A DNA stretch of 64,000 nucleotides from Proteiniphilum propionicum (GTDB lineage: Bacteria > Bacteroidota > Bacteroidia > Bacteroidales > Dysgonomonadaceae), in NCBI RefSeq assembly GCF_022267555.1, contig NZ_CP073586.1, positions 2,347,501 through 2,411,500 on the forward strand. The letters run 5' to 3'. This document shows, piece after piece, positions 6,870-41,969 of this stretch. The position numbers were made by a program, and so were the translations under genes. The number at the start of each line of letters is the position of its first letter. Positions within the stretch are counted from its first letter, which is position 1. A model generated the notes under the pieces. The model saw nothing but the letters and a program-made list of their open reading frames with translations. It made no database searches and was not told the DNA's origin.

Positions 6870-6893
6870 ATCATTATACCTGAATTAATTATT

Positions 6894-7002
6894 GAGTCTC
6901 CTCCTAAAACCTCAAAACCCAATTTTATCGGTTTGCAACATATTGAAAATCAATGATTATCTTGTGAAATTTTCAAGAAAAAAGACTTATTGGAGGAGAC
7001 TC
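6894..7002. repeat. GAGTC element, family 1, copy A (109 bp, with 6-bp target duplication)
   Basis: Ends are perfect 11-bp inverted repeats GAGTCTCCTCC/GGAGGAGACTC. The flanks are the identical hexamer ATTATT at 6888-6893 and 7003-7008. The reverse complement matches the copy at 41806-41914 over the full 109 bases at roughly 90% identity by eye. It codes for no protein. Size, ends and target duplication are those of a non-autonomous miniature transposable element. Confidence 0.88.
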
Positions 7003-7483
7003 ATTATTGGAATAATCTTTTATAAACTGCATATCTCATATTCTCAAAAGTTGTACTCAACATTGTCATTTTTTCACATTGTCTATTTGTTAATTAAATT
7101 ATTATCGCTGAAAAGTAGCAAATATCAGATCATCACTCAAAAGTTGTCATTTTTTCTATCTTCTTATCCATAAAAAATATATCTTTGTGACTTACGTTGT
7201 CAATAGTTTGGTGTTTTTTCAAAAGAACACTTATAACTACTGATTGTTAATAATTAATATGACTTTTAAATATATAGCTTTAATTTCGTGACTATATGAG
7301 TGTTAAGTGAATATTTACCGAAGTATTGATGTTGTAGCAACCTCTTTTTTATAAAGGCATCAACTTGTAGTAGAAAAATCAGATAAGAAACTAAAAAAAT
7401 ATAAACAAGATTGATTGGTTATGATCAATTGATTAAAAACATGATCGTTACCTATTCAATACACCACAAAAATAAATATTAGT
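7003..7483 (+). other. Long upstream region of transketolase
   Basis: No gene is seen. A TATCTTTG -7 box at 7180-7187 is the best promoter candidate and would give a leader of about 300 bases. Just before it, the motif TTGTCATTTTTTC occurs twice (around 7062 and 7144), each time close to CTCAAAAGTTGT, suggesting a small local duplication. A weak TTGAT/ATCAA hairpin lies near 7412-7430. No known riboswitch pattern was recognised. Confidence 0.4.
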
Positions 7484-27180: not shown

Positions 27181-27244
27181 CTAGTATTCAGGATTGTTAT
27201 TTCAAAATTTAACGTGGTTAAATAAATGATACATACCAAACAAT

Positions 27245-27897
27245 AATTAAAAATGAAAAAAGAGGATAATGTAACTAGAAGATCATTTCTGAAAGCTTCT
27301 GCAGTAGCAGGAGCCGTAGGGGTAATCGGCACAGGATCGGCAGGATTTCTAACATCCTGCCGTCCGTAAGCAATGCCGTAACACGATGGAGGACCTTATT
27401 ATTGCCGCCGGGGAACTGGGATCTATCGGCGTCATCATAGTTCCGGCATTCAACAGCCAGGTTCCCGTTATACCCCATAATCAGGAGACACGCGATTTTC
27501 TCTGTGAGCAGTTCGAAGAAATGGGTACCTTTGCACAGCAACAGGGAACCACCGTCATCCTGGAGCCGCTCAATCGCAGAGAGGCCTTTTACCTGCGCCA
27601 GGTAGGCGATGCTGCATCCATTTGCCGCGATATCAATAACCCGGGTGTGAAATGCATGGGCGATTTCTGGCATATGACCTGGGAGGAGAACTCCGATATG
27701 GGAGCGTTTATCTCAGCTGGCGAACATCTGCAGCATGTGCATGTTGCCAGCCGCAAACGCCGCAGCATGCCCGGAGAAGATGGAGAAGCTGATAACTATG
27801 TTAACGGTTTTAAAGGGCTGAAAATGATCGGATACGACAAATATGTCAGTTTCGAGTGTGGTTGCCAGGGAGACCGTAAAGTGGTAGTACCCGCGGC
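27245..27897 (+). repeat. Near-identical tract shared with 36837-36951 and 38571-39114
   Basis: From 27245 to 27897 only four mismatches are seen by eye against the two distant segments joined together. The left part (to 27359) matches the start of the Tat-exported oxidoreductase gene, and the right part matches the TIM-barrel gene. The join is at ATCCTG, which occurs at both source breakpoints (36946-36951 and 38571-38576); 1625 bases are missing between them. Homology stops abruptly 8 bases before the start codon on the left and about 36 bases before the stop codon on the right. Confidence 0.9.
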
Positions 27898-27934
27898 GCC
27901 GGAACTGTTTAGAAAACAATTGAATGAGGCCTGA
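27253..27934 (+). pseudogene. Dead chimera: oxidoreductase signal peptide joined to TIM-barrel gene
   Basis: The first 36 codons equal the Tat/lipoprotein leader of the gene at 36845 (RRSFLKASAVAG to FLTSC). The reading frame then runs out of phase into the sugar isomerase/epimerase sequence and stops after C-R-P. The downstream part, from MEDLIIAAGELGSIG to the stop at 27934, is an intact but unled C-terminal two thirds of the TIM barrel. Its last residues, APELFRKQLNEA, differ from the source gene's ALELLRKQWEEA at DNA level, so the 3' end probably belongs to an older local paralogue that was overwritten by gene conversion. Confidence 0.88.
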
Positions 27935-33759: not shown

Positions 33760-34914
33760 ATGAAAACAAAATCAATTAATTTTCAATTTGGTGTTTATAA
33801 TATATCTATTATAACTCTGTTACTTACGATGTTTTCATGTCTGCCATGGAGAAGCAAGAAGAGTGTTGATTACGTTTCCCCGCAAACCGTTTTTAAAATC
33901 AATTCTTCTGAAAATAATCCTCGCAACAGTGAAGGTGATTTTATAAATCTTAAAGATGGAAGAATTCTATTTGTGTACAGCCATTATTATGGAACTTCTT
34001 CCAGCGATCACGCCACTGCTTATCTTGCAGGACGATATTCCGATGATGGGGGGCAAACATGGAGCGATAATGATGAGATAATTGTAGAAAATGAGGGGGG
34101 CATGAATGTGATGTCAGTCTCCCTGCTTCGTTTGCATAATGGAGATATAGCCTTGTTTTATTTAAGAAAAAATTCAACTGAAGATTGTATTCCGATGATG
34201 CGTATTTCTAAAGACGAAGCAAAATCGTGGAGCGAAGCAATCCGTTGTATTACTGATAAACAAGGCTATTTTGTGCTAAATAATGATAGAGTTATTCAAC
34301 TTAAAGATGATAGGTTATTAATGTCAGTGGCCTTACATCAATTAAGAGGCGGCAAATGGTCAAATAAAGCCGATTTATTCTGTTATTACTCAGATGATAA
34401 TGGCTTGACATGGTATTCAAGTTCACAAGTGCCGGATAATACTGATATTATTACTCAGGAGCCAGGGCTGGTTGAGATGAGGGATGGCCGTGTAATGATG
34501 TATATTCGCTCAAGCGGAGGATACCAGCAAATGTCATTTTCTTCCGATAGGGGAGAGACATGGAGCCATATTGAGGCTAGTAATATCCCGTCTCCATTAT
34601 CACCTGCCTCAATTGAAAAAATACCAGGTTCAAATGATTGGCTTCTTGTGTGGAATAATAATGACGGGACGGATCCTGTTATTAAAAATAAAAGGACACC
34701 TTTAACTGTAGCGATTTCAAAAAATGAAGGGAAAACATGGGAAAATATCAAAAACATTCAGGACGATCCGGATGGATTTTATTGCTATATTGCAATTCAT
34801 TTTGTAGACAAAAATAATATTTTACTTGGTTACTCTGATGGGAATCAATCTAAAAAAACACTTTTGTCTGTTATTGATATTACTCTTCTAAATAAGCAAT
34901 GGCTTTATAAATGA
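33760..34914 (+). CDS. Sialidase-superfamily (Asp-box) lipoprotein
   Basis: 384 residues. A lipoprotein signal ends T-M-F-S-C at about residue 27. Five Asp-box motifs mark a six-bladed beta-propeller: SDDGGQTW (about 94), SKDEAKSW (about 150), SDDNGLTW (about 211), SSDRGETW (about 262) and SKNEGKTW (about 319). The pattern is that of exo-alpha-sialidase-like proteins of Bacteroidota. The family's arginine triad is not obvious: an R-x-I-P-type N-terminal site is absent, so activity on sialic acid is unsure and another sugar is possible. Ends the glycan region; no MITE or terminator is seen directly after it. Confidence 0.82.
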   Translation: MKTKSINFQFGVYNISIITLLLTMFSCLPWRSKKSVDYVSPQTVFKINSSENNPRNSEGDFINLKDGRILFVYSHYYGTSSSDHATAYLAGRYSDDGGQTWSDNDEIIVENEGGMNVMSVSLLRLHNGDIALFYLRKNSTEDCIPMMRISKDEAKSWSEAIRCITDKQGYFVLNNDRVIQLKDDRLLMSVALHQLRGGKWSNKADLFCYYSDDNGLTWYSSSQVPDNTDIITQEPGLVEMRDGRVMMYIRSSGGYQQMSFSSDRGETWSHIEASNIPSPLSPASIEKIPGSNDWLLVWNNNDGTDPVIKNKRTPLTVAISKNEGKTWENIKNIQDDPDGFYCYIAIHFVDKNNILLGYSDGNQSKKTLLSVIDITLLNKQWLYK

Positions 34915-35015
34915 AAATATTTTTCACGATAAGATAAAAATGAGTACTTTTATAGGCGATTAACTCTTTCTTATAGATGAAAGTTATAATTTAATATTTC
35001 TTATCAAAAACAACA

Positions 35016-36596
35016 ATGTCGAGAGTTTCAAGAAGGAACACTAAGCCAAAAAAGAAATTTCACAATCGTAAAGGATTTTTCCTTATAACAGGAATTATAA
35101 TTGGAATTGTATTTGTAGGAGCTTTGTATCAGACCTCGGTCTATTTTTCGACCAATGAATCGTGTATGATGTGTCATGTGCATCCTCATGTAGAAGATAG
35201 CTGGAAGCTGTCTACACATGTGAACAACGGTAGTGGAGTAATGGTAAACTGTGTGGATTGCCACCTTCCTCCTACAGACAACACATGGGAGCACTATAGC
35301 GCAAAAGCAGCACTTGGAATGCGCGACCTGTGGGGCTATCTAACCAAAGATACTGCCGATTTCGACTGGGATAAAAAATCAGAATTGGAATACGCTGTCA
35401 AATATATACCAAACAAATCATGTGTTAAGTGTCATCAAAATCTTTTTCCGGAGGGAATTACCGATGATGGTATCACAGCACATCTATATTATGAGGAGAA
35501 TGCGGAAAAACTTGACCTCCAATGTATAAGCTGCCATCTCGATGCAGGGCATTATAATCCTAACTACGCACATGGACAGATGACAGGAATTCCTGGTGTA
35601 ACAGGTTCAATGGCAGCTGACAGCAGCCTGTTTTATAAGGAATCGACTCAGGTAACTGCCTTTGCCAATTATACTGAGCAGATTCCCGGAACAGTTGTTT
35701 CATTCAACATGATTGCTGTTGACGGTGGAACATTTTTAATGGGGAGCCCGGAAAAAGAGCATTTCCGCAACCCGGATGAATCGCCACAGCATGAGGTTTC
35801 CGTGAGCCCTTTCTTTATGGCTGAAGTGGAAACTACATGGGATCAATTTTGGGCATTTTACGCTGAGACAATAAGTGAAGGGCGCACTCCCCCTGAAGTT
35901 GTTTATGAAAACAACTTGAATGCAGAAGAGGTTGATGCCATCTCCGGGCCAACACCTCCTTTTGGCTATCCGGACCAAGGTTGGGGGCAGGGCGACCGTC
36001 CCGCTATCACGATGACACATTACGCAGCTGAAACATTCTGTCAATGGTTATCAAAAAAAACAGGTAAGAATTACCGCCTGCCAACTGAAGCGGAATGGGA
36101 GTATGCTGCCAGGGGGGGTAAAAAAACAGCCTATTTCTTCCAAGGAAGTCCGAAGGATTTTTCCGACCGGGGCTTTATGAGGAATATTTTCAAACCTAAA
36201 ACCGACAGCATCAGTGCTTATGTGGTGTATAATAAAAATAGCGATGGTAGAACACAACTGCCATTGGCTGTATTGCCGAATCAATATGGATTGAAGAATA
36301 TGTTGGGTAATGTGATGGAATATACATCCGACAAATACGATCCGGAAGCTTATGGCAAACGTTCGGGAGTTACCGTAAATCCACGAGTGACTGAAGGTGA
36401 AGAGTGGGTGGTAAGAGGCGGATCATACAATTCCGATGCAGCTGATGTGCGCTGTGCAAGCCGTAGTCACACACAACATGACGCCTGGCTGAAGACAGAC
36501 CCGCAGCAACCAAAGAGTATCTGGTGGTATTCTGATATTAAAGGAATCGGGTTCAGGGTAGTATGTGAACCAGATTCATCAATGAACCTGAACTAA
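35016..36596 (+). CDS. Tetraheme NapC/NrfH-type cytochrome c fused to an FGE-like domain
   Basis: 526 residues in two parts. Residues 20-42 are a membrane anchor; after it come four haem c motifs: C50-MM-C-H, C79-VD-C-H, C136-VK-C-H and C170-IS-C-H, the layout of NapC/NrfH quinol dehydrogenases that pass electrons from menaquinol to periplasmic enzymes. Residues about 226-523 are a formylglycine-generating-enzyme (SUMF1/PvdO) fold: GGTFLMGSP, YRLPTEAEWEYAARGG, GNVMEYTSD, VVRGGSYNSDAADVRCASR and IKGIGFRVVCEP. The Cys pair of true FGE (S-Y-x-C-H ... Y-C-x-R) is missing, so sulfatase activation is unlikely. No nitrite reductase NrfA follows; cytochrome assembly gene ccsBA lies 2.7 kb downstream. 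Confidence 0.9.
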   Translation: MSRVSRRNTKPKKKFHNRKGFFLITGIIIGIVFVGALYQTSVYFSTNESCMMCHVHPHVEDSWKLSTHVNNGSGVMVNCVDCHLPPTDNTWEHYSAKAALGMRDLWGYLTKDTADFDWDKKSELEYAVKYIPNKSCVKCHQNLFPEGITDDGITAHLYYEENAEKLDLQCISCHLDAGHYNPNYAHGQMTGIPGVTGSMAADSSLFYKESTQVTAFANYTEQIPGTVVSFNMIAVDGGTFLMGSPEKEHFRNPDESPQHEVSVSPFFMAEVETTWDQFWAFYAETISEGRTPPEVVYENNLNAEEVDAISGPTPPFGYPDQGWGQGDRPAITMTHYAAETFCQWLSKKTGKNYRLPTEAEWEYAARGGKKTAYFFQGSPKDFSDRGFMRNIFKPKTDSISAYVVYNKNSDGRTQLPLAVLPNQYGLKNMLGNVMEYTSDKYDPEAYGKRSGVTVNPRVTEGEEWVVRGGSYNSDAADVRCASRSHTQHDAWLKTDPQQPKSIWWYSDIKGIGFRVVCEPDSSMNLN

Positions 36597-36637
36597 TTGA
36601 CCGCTCAGTCAAGTTCGCTTAATTGATTCAAATATAT

Positions 36638-36743
36638 GAGTCCGTTCGTAAAACCCGAAATGTTAAAATCGTTATTTACAATGCATTGAATGCCAATATC
36701 TGTTTTGGCCCGATTGTAATGTTAGGGATTTTCATGTGGACTC
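36638..36743. repeat. GAGTC element, family 3 (106 bp)
   Basis: Begins GAGTCC and ends GGACTC; the arms continue as an imperfect inverted repeat of about 34 bases (AAAACCCGAAATGTTAAAATCG against the inverse of the right arm, 15 of 22 positions). Flanks are similar but not identical (ATATAT before, AAATAT after). Non-coding. It shares end sequences, but not the interior, with the elements at 2766, 6894 and 41806. It sits between the cytochrome gene and the Tat oxidoreductase gene. Confidence 0.65.
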
Positions 36744-36844
36744 AAATATCAAATATATAGTTTCGGAACAGATTGTAATTGCCGGAATAATGTTTTGGAA
36801 AAGAGAGATAAAGATACTGTACAATCTAAATAAATCAATTAAAA

Positions 36845-38224
36845 ATGAAAAAAGAGGATAATGTAACCAGAAGATCATTTCTGAAAGCTTCTGCAGTAGC
36901 AGGAGCCGTAGGGGTAATCGGCACAGGATCGGCAGGATTTCTAACATCCTGTAGTGGAGGAACTGAAAAAAGCAAAGGTGGCAGTGTTCCTTTAAAAGAA
37001 CCAGGGAGCTATTATATTCCCGATCTGCCTGATCTGGCCGCTGATGGTAAAGAGCTTAAAGCCGGTGTTGTAGGTTGTGGAGGACGAGGTTCCGGAGCAG
37101 CAATGAACTTTTTGAATGCTGCCAACGGTTTAACTATTGTGGCATTAGGTGATGTTTTTCAGGACAGGGTGGACGGACTGGCAGAAAAGCTTAAGAACGA
37201 GAAAAATATTGATATACCTTCCGATAAACGATTTGTCGGCCTTGATGCATATAAACAGGTTATAGACAGCGATATTGATGTGCTTATCGACTGTACGCCT
37301 CCATTTTTTCGTGCAGAGCATTTCAAATATGCAGTAGAGAAAAGCAAACATTGCTTTCTCGAGAAGCCAATATGTGTAGATTCTGTTGGCTATCGTACAA
37401 TAGTGGCAGCGGCTAAACAGGCGAGGGCAAAGAACCTTAGGGTTGTTACCGGAACTCAGCGGCACCACCAGCGCAGTTATGTTGAGTCATTCAAACAAAT
37501 CATGAACGGCGCCATAGGAGAAATTACCGGTGGTGTTGTATACTGGAACCAGAACATGTTGTGGTATCGCGACCGCCAGCCCGGCTGGAGCGATTTTGAA
37601 TATATGGTGCGCGACTGGGTTAACTGGAAATGGTTGTCTGGCGATCATATTGTGGAACAGCATGTACATAACATCGACGTGTTTACCTGGTTCTCCGGCC
37701 TGAAACCTGTCAGTGCAGTCGGTTTCGGATCGCGTCAACGCCGTATAACGGGAGACCAGTACGATAACTTCAGCATCGACTTCACAATGGAGAACGGGGT
37801 GCACCTGCACAGTATGTGCCGCCAGATCGATGGCTGTGCCAACAATGTTAGCGAGTTTATCCAGGGAACTAAAGGTTCGTGGTCAAGTGACGGCGGTCAT
37901 GTTATCAAAGACCTCGAGGGGAACGTTATCTGGCAATACGACGGTGAAGCTGAGAAAGCCGAGTTCCAGCAGACCGATCCATATACACTAGAACATGTGA
38001 ACCTGATAAACTGCATACGTGGGAACAATCCCATTGAGCAGGCATCAGAGACAGCCATATCGAATATGGCGGCAATCATGGGTCGCGAGTCGGCATATAC
38101 AGGGCAGATGGTTACCTGGGATGCCATGACTGCGGCACCGCTCGATTATACTCCTGCCGACCTGAATATCGGTAAAATGGAAATGAAGGGGTTCTCGGTT
38201 CCTGTACCGGGAAGCGCTAAATAA
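36845..38224 (+). CDS. Tat-exported Gfo/Idh/MocA sugar oxidoreductase
   Basis: 459 residues. The N-terminus has a twin-arginine signal (T-R-R-S-F-L-K) with a lipobox ending L-T-S-C, so the folded, cofactor-loaded enzyme is exported and possibly lipid-anchored. Rossmann domain: KAGVVGCGGRGSGAAMNFL, DVLIDCTPPFF, CFLEKPICVD with the catalytic-type Glu-Lys-Pro; C-terminal beta-sheet domain: DHIVEQHVHNIDVFTWFSG and SMCRQIDGC. Cousins with tightly bound NADP act as periplasmic glucose-fructose oxidoreductases; in Bacteroides, Gfo/Idh/MocA plus TIM-barrel pairs take part in C3-oxidation of glycosides. Its TIM-barrel partner starts 12 bases after the stop, a clear operon. Confidence 0.93.
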   Translation: MKKEDNVTRRSFLKASAVAGAVGVIGTGSAGFLTSCSGGTEKSKGGSVPLKEPGSYYIPDLPDLAADGKELKAGVVGCGGRGSGAAMNFLNAANGLTIVALGDVFQDRVDGLAEKLKNEKNIDIPSDKRFVGLDAYKQVIDSDIDVLIDCTPPFFRAEHFKYAVEKSKHCFLEKPICVDSVGYRTIVAAAKQARAKNLRVVTGTQRHHQRSYVESFKQIMNGAIGEITGGVVYWNQNMLWYRDRQPGWSDFEYMVRDWVNWKWLSGDHIVEQHVHNIDVFTWFSGLKPVSAVGFGSRQRRITGDQYDNFSIDFTMENGVHLHSMCRQIDGCANNVSEFIQGTKGSWSSDGGHVIKDLEGNVIWQYDGEAEKAEFQQTDPYTLEHVNLINCIRGNNPIEQASETAISNMAAIMGRESAYTGQMVTWDAMTAAPLDYTPADLNIGKMEMKGFSVPVPGSAK

Positions 38225-38236
38225 ATTGAAATTATT

Positions 38237-39151
38237 ATGACTTTTGACAGACGAAGATTTCTAAAAACTACCATCGCGGGTTCTGCTGCCATGGCTATTG
38301 GGGGATGTAACTCTTTTGGTTCTGCAAACACCAGAAGCCAGGTGACTTCCAGTAAAGCAAAACTAAATATCTCCTTTCAGGAGGGTATAGCACCGGGAGA
38401 TAGCCTCAACGAGAAGTTCGACTTCATGGAGAAGCATGGAGTTGTAGGTTTTGAACCGCAAGGCAGAGGAATCCGCGACCGTATTCAGGAGATCAGAGAT
38501 GCTCTCAATGAGCGCAACATCAAGGTTAGCGCCATTTGTGCAGGTTTCGACGGATTTATCCTGTCCACCGATCCTGCCGTCCGTAAGCAATGCCGTAACA
38601 CGATGGAGGACCTTATTATTGCCGCCGGGGAACTGGGATCTATCGGCGTCATCATAGTTCCGGCATTCAACAGCCAGGTTCCCGTTATGCCCCATAATCA
38701 GGAGACACGCGATTTTCTCTGTGAGCAGTTCGAAGAAATGGGTACCTTTGCACAGCAACAGGGAACCACCGTCATCTTGGAACCGCTCAATCGCAGAGAG
38801 GCCTTTTACCTGCGCCAGGTAGGCGATGCTGCATCCATTTGCCGCGATATCAATAACCCGGGTGTGAAATGCATGGGCGATTTCTGGCATATGACCTGGG
38901 AGGAGAACTCCGATATGGGAGCGTTTATCTCAGCTGGCGAACATCTGCAGCATGTGCATGTTGCCAGCCGCAAACGCCGCAGCATGCCCGGAGAAGATGG
39001 AGAAGCTGATAACTATGTTAACGGTTTTAAAGGGCTGAAAATGATCGGATACGACAAATATGTCAGTTTCGAGTGTGGTTGCCAGGGAGACCGTAAAGTG
39101 GTAGTACCCGCGGCTCTTGAGTTACTTCGTAAACAATGGGAAGAGGCCTGA
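38237..39151 (+). CDS. Tat-exported sugar phosphate isomerase/epimerase-like TIM barrel
   Basis: 304 residues. Tat signal (D-R-R-R-F-L-K) with lipobox ending A-I-G-G-C at about residue 24. The rest is an AP-endonuclease-2-like TIM barrel: ISFQEGIAPG, VGFEPQGRG, VSAICAGFDGF, VTVILEPLNR-type strand (VILEPLNRREAF) with metal-binding Glu, MGDFWHMTWEE with Asp and His, HVHVASRKRRSMPG, and VSFECGCQGD with the final Glu. These residues form the divalent-metal site of the family. Known partners of Gfo/Idh/MocA oxidoreductases use this fold to epimerise or eliminate keto-sugars. The same segment has been copied into the dead gene at 27253. Confidence 0.9.
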   Translation: MTFDRRRFLKTTIAGSAAMAIGGCNSFGSANTRSQVTSSKAKLNISFQEGIAPGDSLNEKFDFMEKHGVVGFEPQGRGIRDRIQEIRDALNERNIKVSAICAGFDGFILSTDPAVRKQCRNTMEDLIIAAGELGSIGVIIVPAFNSQVPVMPHNQETRDFLCEQFEEMGTFAQQQGTTVILEPLNRREAFYLRQVGDAASICRDINNPGVKCMGDFWHMTWEENSDMGAFISAGEHLQHVHVASRKRRSMPGEDGEADNYVNGFKGLKMIGYDKYVSFECGCQGDRKVVVPAALELLRKQWEEA

Positions 39152-39178
39152 GGCCGCTTCACTGTTTCCGGTTTGATG

Positions 39179-39218
39179 AAAAATGAGTGAAAGAAATCGG
39201 ATTTTTCACTCATTTTTT
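39179..39218 (+). terminator. Terminator of the Gfo/Idh-TIM-barrel operon
   Basis: Perfect 14-bp stem AAAAATGAGTGAAA (39179-39192) with TTTCACTCATTTTT (39204-39217), ending in T residues. It uncouples this operon from ccsBA. Confidence 0.9.
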
Positions 39219-39329
39219 ATCACTGGATAAATGAGTTATAGTAACCATTTCAGTCAAGCTTGGCTTCAGTTTATCTGTTTAAAGCAAAAGTAAAACAAGC
39301 TAGTAACATTTTGTATCAATAATTACGGC

Positions 39330-41783
39330 ATGGACAGATTACTGAAACTTCTTACCTCCTATAAGGCAACCATTACCCTGTTGTTTGTTTATGCTATTGG
39401 TTTGGCAACAGCTACGATTTTGGAAAAACAGATGGGTACCGAGGCAGCCAAAATGCTTATATACTACTCACCACTGTTTATCTTACTGCAGTTCCTGTTG
39501 GTGCTTAACTTCATCCTTATTCTTATTCGTCAAAATTTCATCAAAAGGAAAAGATGGGCAATGGTTGTGGTTCATTTAGCTCTTGTAGTCATCCTTGCGG
39601 GCGCATTAGTTACTTTCCTGTTCGGGAAAGAGGGGCAGATACATATCCGTGAGGGTGAAAAGGCAGACACAATGATGATGCATACATCAAATGGAATTAA
39701 GACCGAGAGGATGCCTTTTGTGCTGGAACTTGCCGAATTCAGGATTATCCGTTATCCAGGATCTGAAAGCCCATCATCTTACGAGAGCGATCTGCTGATA
39801 CATATCAATGGTGAAGTGAGGGAGATGAAACTGTTTATGAACAACGTGCTTGATTTAGAAGGATATCGATTTTTCCAAGCTTCTTACGATCACGATGAGA
39901 AAGGTACTATCCTTTCGGTCAACAGTGATGTGGCTGGACGAACTATCACCTATACAGGTTACCTCATTCTTGTGTTTGGCTTCATCCTTATGTTCATTCT
40001 TCCCGGTTCACATTTCAGAAAACTTGCAAGACAGCTTAAGGAGACAAGGGAGAGTGCAAGGAAAACCGTGATGACGCTCACTATGGTACTGATTACCATG
40101 GTAAGCCAGGGACAGGAGCTGCCAGGTAGCCATATGATTGAAGAGATACAACAAAATACCATACCGCAGGAACATGCGGCAAGGTTTGGTGCATTGCCGG
40201 TACAGTTTCACGGGCGCGTGATGCCTATGAACACTTTTTCATCAGAGATATTACGAAAAATATATAAGAAACCGGTATATGGCAATCTCAACTCCGACCA
40301 GTTCCTTCTGAGCCTGATTGCACAGCCGCAGATGTGGATGCAGGTACCAGTTATCTCCATGGCAAACGAACAGATCAGTGACCGGTATAACCTGCCGGTA
40401 GAACATGTTGCTTACTATCATTTTTTTGATCATAGGGGAGACTATCGGCTATTGCCTCAACTGCAGGAGATATATCATAAACCGGCAGGTGAACGGAGTA
40501 CTTTCGATAAAGACCTGTTAAAGCTTGATGAAAGGGTAAACATTTTATATCAGTTGTTTAACGGTGCTATGCCGGGCATCTTTCCCAATCCTCACGGCTC
40601 TTCTCACACATGGTATGCTCCGGGCGGCAATCTATCTGTTTTCAACGAAAAAGACTCACTTTTTATAACAAACACATTCGCATGGTACCTCTCGGAAGTT
40701 ACACTCTCGCTCAGTAGCGGTGATTGGAGCAAACCCGGCAGGGTGCTCGATTTGATTGAAGAGTATCAACGGAAGAACGACAAAGCCTCGCTTATCAACC
40801 CTAAAAAACTTGAGGCCGAAATCCGTTATAACCATCTGAATATTTTTAATCACTGCAAAGAAGGTTATTTTCTCTTTGGCGGAATTCTTCTGATGCTTGC
40901 ATTTATGCTAATGCTGAACGAACGAAAGTGGATTCGTTATGCCTCAGCACTGTTTATAGGAGGGACACTGCTGGTGTTTCTTATACATATTTATGGTATG
41001 GGAATGCGGTGGTATATCTCCGGTTATGCTCCCTGGAGCAATTCTTACGAGACAATGGTTTATGTAGCTTGGGCAACGGTACTGGCGGGACTTATCTTTG
41101 GCCGGAAGAGCACCATCACGCTTGCCCTGGCAACCCTTTTCGGTGGTATCATCCTTTTTGTTTCAGGCCTCAACTGGATGGATCCGCAAATAGACACACT
41201 GGTACCGGTACTGAAATCGCCATGGCTGATGTTTCACGTGGCGGTGATTGTGGGGGCCTACGGATTTTTTGGTATCAGCTTTTTGCTTGGTATCACCAAC
41301 CTATTAATAATGACTTTCACTAAGAAGAGTATGCTTCTATCATACCGTATCAGAGAACTGACAATTATCAATAACCTGTCACTTCTGGCGGGGCTTGCAC
41401 TGATGGCGACCGGTACTTTTCTGGGTGCTGTATGGGCAAACGAATCGTGGGGCAGGTACTGGGGCTGGGACCCCAAGGAGACATGGGCACTTATAACAAT
41501 TGTAGTATATTCAATAGTTACACATATACATCTAATTAAAAAGTGGGATAACGAATGGATCTTTAACTTGCTGTCGGTATTTGCATTTTCTTCAGTACTT
41601 ATGACTTTCCTCGGGGTAAACTATTTCCTGAGCGGTATGCACTCTTATGGGCAAACAGAAAGTACAACGTCTGTTTTTTTGTACATTGCCATCGCATTTC
41701 TTATGATTGGCATTCTGGGCATATTCTCTTACAGAAAGAGAACAATTTTTAAGCAAGATCTGCTTGAAAAAGTCTCAAAATAG
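39330..41783 (+). CDS. ccsBA: Cytochrome c assembly protein CcsBA (fused ResB-ResC)
   Basis: System II cytochrome c synthase: exports haem and links it to apocytochrome CxxCH motifs. 817 residues with at least ten membrane helices. The N-terminal third is ResB/CcsB-like (helices near 12-34, 38-66, 72-97 and about 210-232); the C-terminal part is CcsA (helices from about 515 onward) with the haem-handling WGRYWGWDPKETWALI signature (residues about 707-722) and periplasmic His residues. Its nearest client is the tetraheme fusion at 35016. The final seven codons, L-L-E-K-V-S-K and TAG, lie inside the family 2 repeat, so the native C-terminus was probably replaced by an insertion. Confidence 0.93.
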   Translation: MDRLLKLLTSYKATITLLFVYAIGLATATILEKQMGTEAAKMLIYYSPLFILLQFLLVLNFILILIRQNFIKRKRWAMVVVHLALVVILAGALVTFLFGKEGQIHIREGEKADTMMMHTSNGIKTERMPFVLELAEFRIIRYPGSESPSSYESDLLIHINGEVREMKLFMNNVLDLEGYRFFQASYDHDEKGTILSVNSDVAGRTITYTGYLILVFGFILMFILPGSHFRKLARQLKETRESARKTVMTLTMVLITMVSQGQELPGSHMIEEIQQNTIPQEHAARFGALPVQFHGRVMPMNTFSSEILRKIYKKPVYGNLNSDQFLLSLIAQPQMWMQVPVISMANEQISDRYNLPVEHVAYYHFFDHRGDYRLLPQLQEIYHKPAGERSTFDKDLLKLDERVNILYQLFNGAMPGIFPNPHGSSHTWYAPGGNLSVFNEKDSLFITNTFAWYLSEVTLSLSSGDWSKPGRVLDLIEEYQRKNDKASLINPKKLEAEIRYNHLNIFNHCKEGYFLFGGILLMLAFMLMLNERKWIRYASALFIGGTLLVFLIHIYGMGMRWYISGYAPWSNSYETMVYVAWATVLAGLIFGRKSTITLALATLFGGIILFVSGLNWMDPQIDTLVPVLKSPWLMFHVAVIVGAYGFFGISFLLGITNLLIMTFTKKSMLLSYRIRELTIINNLSLLAGLALMATGTFLGAVWANESWGRYWGWDPKETWALITIVVYSIVTHIHLIKKWDNEWIFNLLSVFAFSSVLMTFLGVNYFLSGMHSYGQTESTTSVFLYIAIAFLMIGILGIFSYRKRTIFKQDLLEKVSK

Positions 41784-41969
41784 AATATTTGACATTATAA
41801 TCACTGAGTCTCCTCCGATAAGTCTTTTTTCTTGAAAATTTCACAAGATAAACATTGATTTTCAATAAGTTGCAAGCCAATAAAATTGAGTTTTGAGGTT
41901 TTCGGAGAGGACTCATCACTTGAAAATCAAATATTATATTTTTACAAAACGACTTATTAAAGTGGACTC
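41756..41969. repeat. GAGTC element, family 2, interrupted copy
   Basis: The outer parts (41756-41805 and 41921-41969) match the reverse complement of the 99-bp element at 2766-2864 almost base for base: TGCTTGAAAAAGTCTCAAA on the left and ACGACTTATTAAAGTGGACTC at the right end. The family 1 element plus a second ATCACT interrupts it. The left end has GATC in place of GAGTC. The left part also encodes the ccsBA stop codon. Confidence 0.85.
41806..41914. repeat. GAGTC element, family 1, copy B (109 bp, nested)
   Basis: Exactly 109 bases with ends GAGTCTCCTCCGA and TCGGAGAGGACTC, flanked by ATCACT at 41800-41805 and 41915-41920. It is the reverse complement of copy A at 6894-7002 with a modest number of differences. 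The empty site at 2766-2864 contains ATCACT once, so the 6-bp duplication arose on insertion. Confidence 0.9.

Follow-up and report, generated by a model that had tools for sequence, protein, structure and literature searches.

We show herein that a gene of Proteiniphilum propionicum, found in a 64,000-nucleotide stretch of contig NZ_CP073586.1 (the window), encodes a tetrahaem cytochrome domain of the NapC/NrfH type fused to a domain with the fold of the formylglycine-generating enzyme (FGE), and that this fusion gene is followed by genes for two conserved partners, a Gfo/Idh/MocA oxidoreductase (Gfo) with a twin-arginine translocation (Tat) signal and a sugar-epimerase-like triosephosphate isomerase (TIM) barrel. 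The partnership of the fusion protein with Gfo and the TIM barrel is well supported by comparison of gene neighbourhoods. We propose, giving the idea about an even chance, that glycosides are oxidized in the periplasm and that the electrons pass via the fused FGE-tetrahaem protein to menaquinone; within this proposal the direction of electron flow, the substrate and the role of the FGE-fold domain are what we infer.

The open reading frame (ORF) of the fusion gene is real: it lies on the + strand, starts with ATG and stays open for 526 codons, and the first-pass annotation of the gene was borne out as an observation. Its description as a tetrahaem NapC/NrfH-type cytochrome joined to an FGE-like domain agrees with Pfam, where both domains score above their cut-offs: Cytochrom_NNT (PF03264) over residues 19-183 with 87.9 bits against 24.1, and FGE-sulfatase (PF03781) over residues 231-487 with 137.1 bits against 23.3. 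A pattern scan of genome contigs gave 285 matches, 278 of them encoding a relative, and the best 80 are referred to here as the 80 fusion loci. The two halves lie side by side in all of them (tblastn), and a long ORF without an inner stop was called in 79; at the remaining locus, L090, the simple caller picked an ORF on the opposite strand. The fusion-bearing records include Proteiniphilum, Fermentimonas, Petrimonas, Seramator, Dysgonomonas, Parabacteroides, Tannerella, Alistipes and Prolixibacteraceae. Whole-genome searches of 61 relatives, the window's genome among them, found a near-full-length fusion in 34, and one fusion, G405 of a phylum sample of 395 Bacteroidota genomes, came from outside the class. 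The features of the gene are as follows.

35016..36596, + strand: fusion gene for a protein of 526 amino acids with an N-terminal membrane anchor, a tetrahaem NapC/NrfH-type domain and an FGE-fold domain (ORF, Pfam, both halves adjacent in 80/80 loci)
35058..35147, + strand: predicted N-terminal transmembrane helix, residues 15-44 (AlphaFold2 model; alignment with the N-terminal region of NrfH)
35163..35183, + strand: haem-1 motif CxxCHxH, C50-H54 plus H56, which replaces the Met of NrfH/NapC (H56 in 80/80 sequences)
35250..35264, + strand: haem-2 motif CxxCH, residues 79-83 (sequence, alignment)
35304..35327, + strand: quinone-site Lys97 and Asp104, counterparts of the NrfH 2j7a residues K and D (alignment)
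35421..35435, + strand: haem-3 motif CxxCH, residues 136-140 (sequence, alignment)
35481..35483, + strand: His156, invariant, candidate haem ligand (80/80 sequences; no His there in either NrfH compared)
35523..35537, + strand: haem-4 motif CxxCH, residues 170-174 (sequence, alignment)
35706..36476, + strand: FGE-fold domain, residues 231-487, without the copper-site Cys pair (Pfam, fold search, alignment)
36498..36527, + strand: DPQQPKSIWW motif, residues 495-504, common to cytochrome-free relatives (alignment)

The four CxxCH motifs lie behind one N-terminal helix (residues 15-44), which is predicted at the position where NrfH has its anchor and may act as one. An AlphaFold2 model of the fusion protein, made from 68 sequences, had a mean predicted local distance difference test (pLDDT) score of 63 and a fair FGE-like core; its haem region was mostly below 60 and much of it below 50, as may be expected for a model without haems, and the model is adequate for the FGE fold only. 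Promoter and terminator counts in 34850-39400 were about equal to those in shuffled sequences.

Downstream of the fusion gene, the window contains the genes for Gfo, the TIM barrel and a ccsBA-type protein, in this order.

36845..38224, + strand: Gfo/Idh/MocA oxidoreductase with Tat signal and signal-peptide Cys, 459 amino acids, predicted partner (Pfam, conservation, synteny)
38237..39151, + strand: AP_endonuc_2 TIM barrel with RR-type signal, sugar-epimerase-like, 304 amino acids (PDB matches, synteny)
39330..41783, + strand: ccsBA-type cytochrome c synthase (ResB + CcsA), 817 amino acids (Pfam ResB, Cytochrom_C_asm)

The first-pass annotation had named no partner gene and had overlooked that the next two genes are conserved with the fusion gene. 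Where at least 600 nucleotides of downstream sequence are available (75 fusion loci), Gfo is always encoded there on the same strand, every match starting within 700 nucleotides of the FGE match. Of the 66 loci with at least 2600 nucleotides, 65 have the TIM barrel downstream, L062 being the exception. The ccsBA gene, which may serve to attach the haems of the fusion protein, is present downstream in 33 of the 59 loci with at least 4500 nucleotides, and is the usual gene at that position in Dysgonomonadaceae. In 18 loci of the Parabacteroides/Tannerella type (e.g. L053:5982-7257), the TIM barrel is followed by a conserved protein of about 230 amino acids and a LuxR-type (GerE) protein of about 190 amino acids; the former gave no Pfam match in L053, the one tested.

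Gfo has the Rossmann Pfam domain (GFO_IDH_MocA) and the glycine-rich and EKP motifs. Because its TAT_signal match (27.0 bits) lies above the Pfam cut-off and the signal-peptide Cys, C36, is conserved, it is probably an exported lipoprotein. The TIM barrel has an RR motif, and its Tat signal, with 19.4 bits, falls just below the cut-off of 22.7. It matches PDB 3kws with an E value of 5e-150 and 6wn6, named 3-keto-D-glucoside 4-epimerase, with 3e-23, the latter a sequence kinship only. We take 6wn6 to be YcjR of Escherichia coli, whose ycj cluster presumably pairs a TIM barrel with Gfo/Idh enzymes, as the operon here does; the operon differs from it in that its TIM barrel has a predicted export signal and adjoins a membrane cytochrome gene. 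In the BT_2158-type glycoside 3-dehydrogenase pathway of Bacteroides, too, Gfo enzymes and TIM barrels act on glycosides; its composition resembles that of the operon, with the window's Gfo far below the profile cut-off of that pathway. The "unexplored redox function" of the first-pass annotation has therewith acquired a concrete candidate, the oxidation of sugars.

A second, incomplete copy of the two partner genes occurs in the window. In 27242-27934, the start of a Tat-Gfo gene (27242-27359, 98% identical to 36833-36951) and the 3' part of a TIM-barrel gene (27354-27934, 97.4% identical to 38571-39151) are joined, with most of the middle missing. The segment 24694-27359 has another copy where the genome's single contig begins (G000:C1:1-3925, L169). 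The two align at 99.85% identity with three gaps and not one mismatched base, and the contig-start copy runs into a full second Tat-Gfo gene. A symporter gene and a gene for a 388-amino-acid Gfo are frame-broken in the window copy and intact in the L169 copy. This recurrence reflects either a recent duplication or an assembly or indel problem. An inverted repeat of 111 bases (6893-7003 and 41805-41915, 92% identical) has one copy just behind ccsBA.

The pairing of FGE and Gfo extends to proteins that have no cytochrome. In the phylum sample (FGE matches at E 1e-30, Gfo matches at E 1e-60), 48 of the 395 genomes matched the fusion query, mostly over the FGE domain alone and at 35-46% identity. 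The 44 loci examined (40 of the 49 phylum matches outside the window's own genome plus four distant fusions) comprised six fused and 38 stand-alone genes. According to a simple ORF finder the stand-alone proteins have 289-435 amino acids, one call of 1249 being likely wrong, and by eye most of their N-termini look like secretion or lipoprotein signals. The same Gfo family is encoded downstream within 6 kb in 32 of the 38 stand-alone loci, in 30 of them within 700 nucleotides; for the other nine of the 49 matches, coordinates place Gfo beside FGE in six (G392, G385, G271:C1, G263, G428 and G168). Gfo was found in 45 of the 48 FGE-positive genomes versus 64 of 395 overall (hypergeometric 3e-40, a value that is indicative only, as the genomes are related and not independent). 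Twelve further Gfo loci were examined, and the Gfo ORF was called in nine (not in L171, L175 and L177). An FGE-type ORF adjoins Gfo in three of the nine, L173, L174 and L181; in the first two, from genomes counted as FGE-negative, it is a more distant FGE of about 30% identity directly before Gfo. More distant TIM barrels lie near many of the stand-alone loci.

Since 32 of the 38 cytochrome-free FGE genes keep the Gfo family downstream, the FGE-Gfo pair is probably the older unit, to which the cytochrome was added later. In a tree of the FGE domain with 64 rows (26 fused, namely 20 of the 80 loci and the six distant ones, and 38 stand-alone), all fused rows fell on one side of one branch with a support of 100/99, and a single fusion event is the simplest reading of this tree, which is unrooted (midpoint drawing) and has long branches flagged at L166 and L159. 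The fully annotated stand-alone cluster, L139, also encodes a GMC oxidoreductase, a gluconate dehydrogenase subunit 3, a Nuc_H_symport transporter, a second Gfo and ApbE, a set that, judged by what is known of these families, suggests glycoside oxidation. With one ApbE query, a match within 8 kb on the same strand was obtained in 11 of the 38 stand-alone loci (L139, L140 and L142 among them) versus one of the 80 and none of the six fused loci, 58 of the 80 having at least 8 kb of downstream sequence. Flavinylation of Gfo or FGE proteins by ApbE was considered and dismissed, as a motif scan of their ORFs in L125-L168 found no DGxTxAT-like sequence, which we take to be the flavinylation motif. 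The target of ApbE, if it is linked to these loci, is therefore another protein.

The haem domain shares with NrfH, a cytochrome c quinol dehydrogenase of the NapC/NirT family (2j7a and 2vr0), the N-terminal helix, the four CxxCH motifs and the quinone-site Lys and Asp. It differs by a His at the position of the haem-1 Met, by the extra invariant His156, by the C-terminal FGE domain and by the lack of an adjoining NrfA. Among 80 sequences (79 loci plus the window), His56 occupies the Met position in all, and the distant fusions L125-L128 and L147 have a His there too. The same genome's own NrfH retains CxxCHxM. Lys97 was found in 80 of the 80 sequences and Asp104 in 78; the role of the former at the quinone site is presumed from its NrfH counterpart, and that of the latter is taken from the literature. 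The exchange of electrons with menaquinol put forward in the first-pass annotation is plausible, as Lys97 and Asp104 are kept and the genome has menA. In the parts of PMC10654088 drawn on here, haem 1 of NrfH is described as a CxxCHxM haem with Met49 as ligand and Asp89 on the distal side, and both residues are called essential for menaquinol oxidation. Because haem 1 of the fusion protein has no such Met, the name "quinol dehydrogenase" is no guide to the direction of flow. Passages of PMC8840924 place a Lys from NrfA on the haem that feeds NrfA, and His156 could stand in for this borrowed residue. The change from Met to His would probably lower the potential of haem 1, and the domain probably supplies all of its own haem ligands; a lower-potential haem 1 next to a retained quinone site would suit the reduction of menaquinone by a low-potential donor.

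The other half of the protein resembles the formylglycine-generating enzymes 6s07 and 1z70 in fold and in the core motif RLPTEAEWEYAARGG. As noted earlier from the window alone, it lacks their copper-site Cys pair: no Cys occurs between G469 and R479, the stretch aligned with the Cys residues that we take to bind copper in FGE structures, the exact gap position near it varying between alignments. The Cys columns of 20 sampled fusions are the eight haem Cys, C342 (20/20) and C517 (19/20); variable Cys occur at 437 in 10 of the 20 (Thr in the window) and at 480 in seven. A further difference from these enzymes is the DPQxPKSxWW motif, common to the protein's own stand-alone relatives, in which D495, P496, Q497, P499, S501, W503 and W504 are each present in at least 90% of the 38. 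The FGE domain is highly conserved, and no cofactor or metal site was identified in it. Its top Foldseek match was PvdO (5hha; template modelling score 0.71-0.72 by target length), with FGEs next. PvdO, the dihydropyoverdine dehydrogenase, likewise has the FGE fold, is periplasmic and is linked to a redox step; it differs in having no cytochrome and another substrate. In NCBIfam the PvdO profile (NF051459) gave 83 bits against a cut-off of 500, and the highest score was that of GldK (TIGR03525), 101.4 bits against 350. GldK (PorK) is an FGE-fold lipoprotein of the type IX secretion system ring; it has the FGE-fold domain in common with the fusion protein, and differs in the absence of haems and in gene context. 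We know of no enzyme role for it, and it shows that the FGE fold can serve as a protein-binding part. As PvdO is best by Foldseek and GldK best by NCBIfam, the fold alone cannot tell an enzyme from a docking part. Judged by these comparisons, the fusion protein is a relative of the NapC/NrfH-type quinone-linked cytochromes and is classed as neither an NrfH nor an FGE, because the defining features of both were looked for and found lacking.

According to our proposal, the fusion protein would connect a periplasmic module for sugar oxidation to the membrane. Gfo would fold with its nicotinamide cofactor before export and then oxidize a hydroxyl of a glycoside, most likely at C3 to judge from its relatives, and the TIM barrel would rearrange or cleave the resulting keto-sugar. 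The FGE-fold domain might dock Gfo, hold the sugar near the Trp-rich DPQxPKSxWW region (residues 495-504), or both. The tetrahaem domain would pass the electrons to menaquinone, from which a fumarate reductase/succinate dehydrogenase would receive them; menA and a gene for an SdhA/FrdA-type flavoprotein are present in the genome. The step from a two-electron hydride carrier to haems would require either a mediator that has so far escaped notice or redox activity of the FGE domain. A broader version, which we put forward more tentatively and regard as somewhat doubtful, is that the operon represents a membrane-bound sugar dehydrogenase complex of a new type. In it the FGE domain would either dock Gfo, an enzyme exported by Tat with its nicotinamide bound, or transfer its electrons. 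A single fusion, mainly in Bacteroidales, would have joined this domain to a tetrahaem quinone reductase whose haem 1 has a His ligand, and glycoside oxidation in the periplasm would in this way be respired via menaquinone; the cytochrome-free relatives would use another outlet, perhaps flavin-based.

Several points weigh against this proposal. We know of no precedent for electron transfer from bound NAD(P)H to haem, and Gfo enzymes can be redox-neutral. The solved relatives of Gfo are all weak, the best being myo-inositol dehydrogenase 3cea (E 6e-10), followed by weak matches to glucuronide-3-dehydrogenase 8tdi (E 5e-7) and DgpA 7xr9 (E 4e-5), and Gfo scores far below every NCBIfam enzyme cut-off, the BT_2158-type profile NF058561 giving 28.0 bits against 750; oxidation at C3 is for these reasons a guess from kin. 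A paired model of fusion protein and Gfo was poor (pLDDT 47), displayed no interface and was not used. The ccsBA gene is absent from 26 of the 59 testable fusion loci. Stand-alone FGE relatives have no tetrahaem domain, so the FGE-Gfo pair is not always in need of a cytochrome. Six of the 38 stand-alone loci (L129, L131, L132, L136, L159 and L164) have no same-strand Gfo downstream, although in L159 a Gfo adjoins on the opposite strand; there is no Gfo match in G269, G289 and G320, the rest of the nine matches placed by coordinates; 19 of the 64 Gfo-positive genomes have no FGE match at E 1e-30; and no FGE adjoins Gfo in six of the nine further loci (L172, L176, L178, L179, L180 and L182). The window's TIM subfamily is downstream in just five of the 38 stand-alone loci. 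Finally, the tree is unrooted and thus also compatible with an ancestral cytochrome that the stand-alone group lost.

Among the other explanations, it is conceivable but unlikely that the FGE domain is itself an oxidoreductase, PvdO-like, acting on a sugar or on the product of Gfo and the TIM barrel, with the haems as its private outlet and a redox-neutral Gfo. The Foldseek match to PvdO, the 83 bits of its profile and the high conservation of the domain speak for this idea, as do passages of a review in which PvdO as purified is inactive and without detectable cofactor and its need for an electron transport system is left open (PMC6206403). The PvdO score is nevertheless far below its cut-off and lower than that of GldK, and the domain has no Cys pair or identified cofactor or metal site. 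A reversed flow, from menaquinol to the haems and on to Gfo, which would then reduce a periplasmic keto-sugar, seems to us a little less probable still. NrfH and CymA are described as menaquinol oxidizers in the parts of PMC10654088 drawn on here, and the quinone-site Lys and Asp are kept in the fusion protein; the Met called essential for that reaction is however a His in 80 of 80 sequences, and L139, the sole relative cluster annotated in full, contains genes of the sugar-dehydrogenase type and no terminal reductase.

The remaining explanations carry little or almost no weight. That the cytochrome serves nitrite reduction with an NrfA encoded elsewhere is very improbable, even though the domain is of the NrfH type and the genome has nrfA. 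The genome pairs nrfA with a separate nrfH (G000:C1:358971-361180), and it had been correctly observed that no nitrite reductase subunit adjoins the fusion gene. A constant place beside nrfA, which the first-pass annotation had held up against its own interpretation, was not seen: nrfA occurs in none of the 80 fusion loci (3.2-21.6 kb long). The NrfH equivalog TIGR03153 gave the fusion protein 67.6 bits against a cut-off of 134.2. Moreover, 11 of the 34 fusion genomes have no nrfA above the cut-off, four of them being 99% complete (G011, G019, G058 and G057, the last with a sub-cut-off match) and the others 61-94%, and 10 of the 33 nrfA genomes have no fusion. Nitrite reduction was rejected on the nrfA-free loci and the nrfA-free fusion genomes. 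Activation of sulfatases by the FGE domain, to which the name of the Pfam family alone points, is scarcely credible; it was rejected on the missing copper-site Cys pair, and the conserved neighbours are Gfo, the TIM barrel and ccsBA. An assembly artefact or chance joining of the two halves, which might be suspected from the other oddities of the window's assembly about 8 kb upstream, has a negligible probability, being refuted by the adjacency of both halves in 80 of 80 loci from other records and by the tree, in which one branch (support 100/99) separates the 26 fused rows from the rest.

Taken as a whole, the first-pass interpretation stood in the architecture, the lack of the Cys pair and the independence from nitrite reduction, and missed the conserved partners and the haem-1 change. 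Searches of titles and of term co-occurrence, with many subscription papers outside their coverage, found no published account of an FGE/NrfH-type fusion. The component domains were already known; the architecture, the change of the haem-1 ligand and the constant Gfo partner are new to us.

If our proposal of periplasmic glycoside oxidation is true, electrons from sugar breakdown in Bacteroidales, Parabacteroides included, would enter the menaquinone pool straight from the periplasm, by a path unknown to us from models of Bacteroidales metabolism. FGE-fold proteins that lack the Cys pair would gain a function linked to redox chemistry, which bears on how PvdO passes its electrons on, and it would become clear how exported Gfo enzymes regain their oxidized cofactor.

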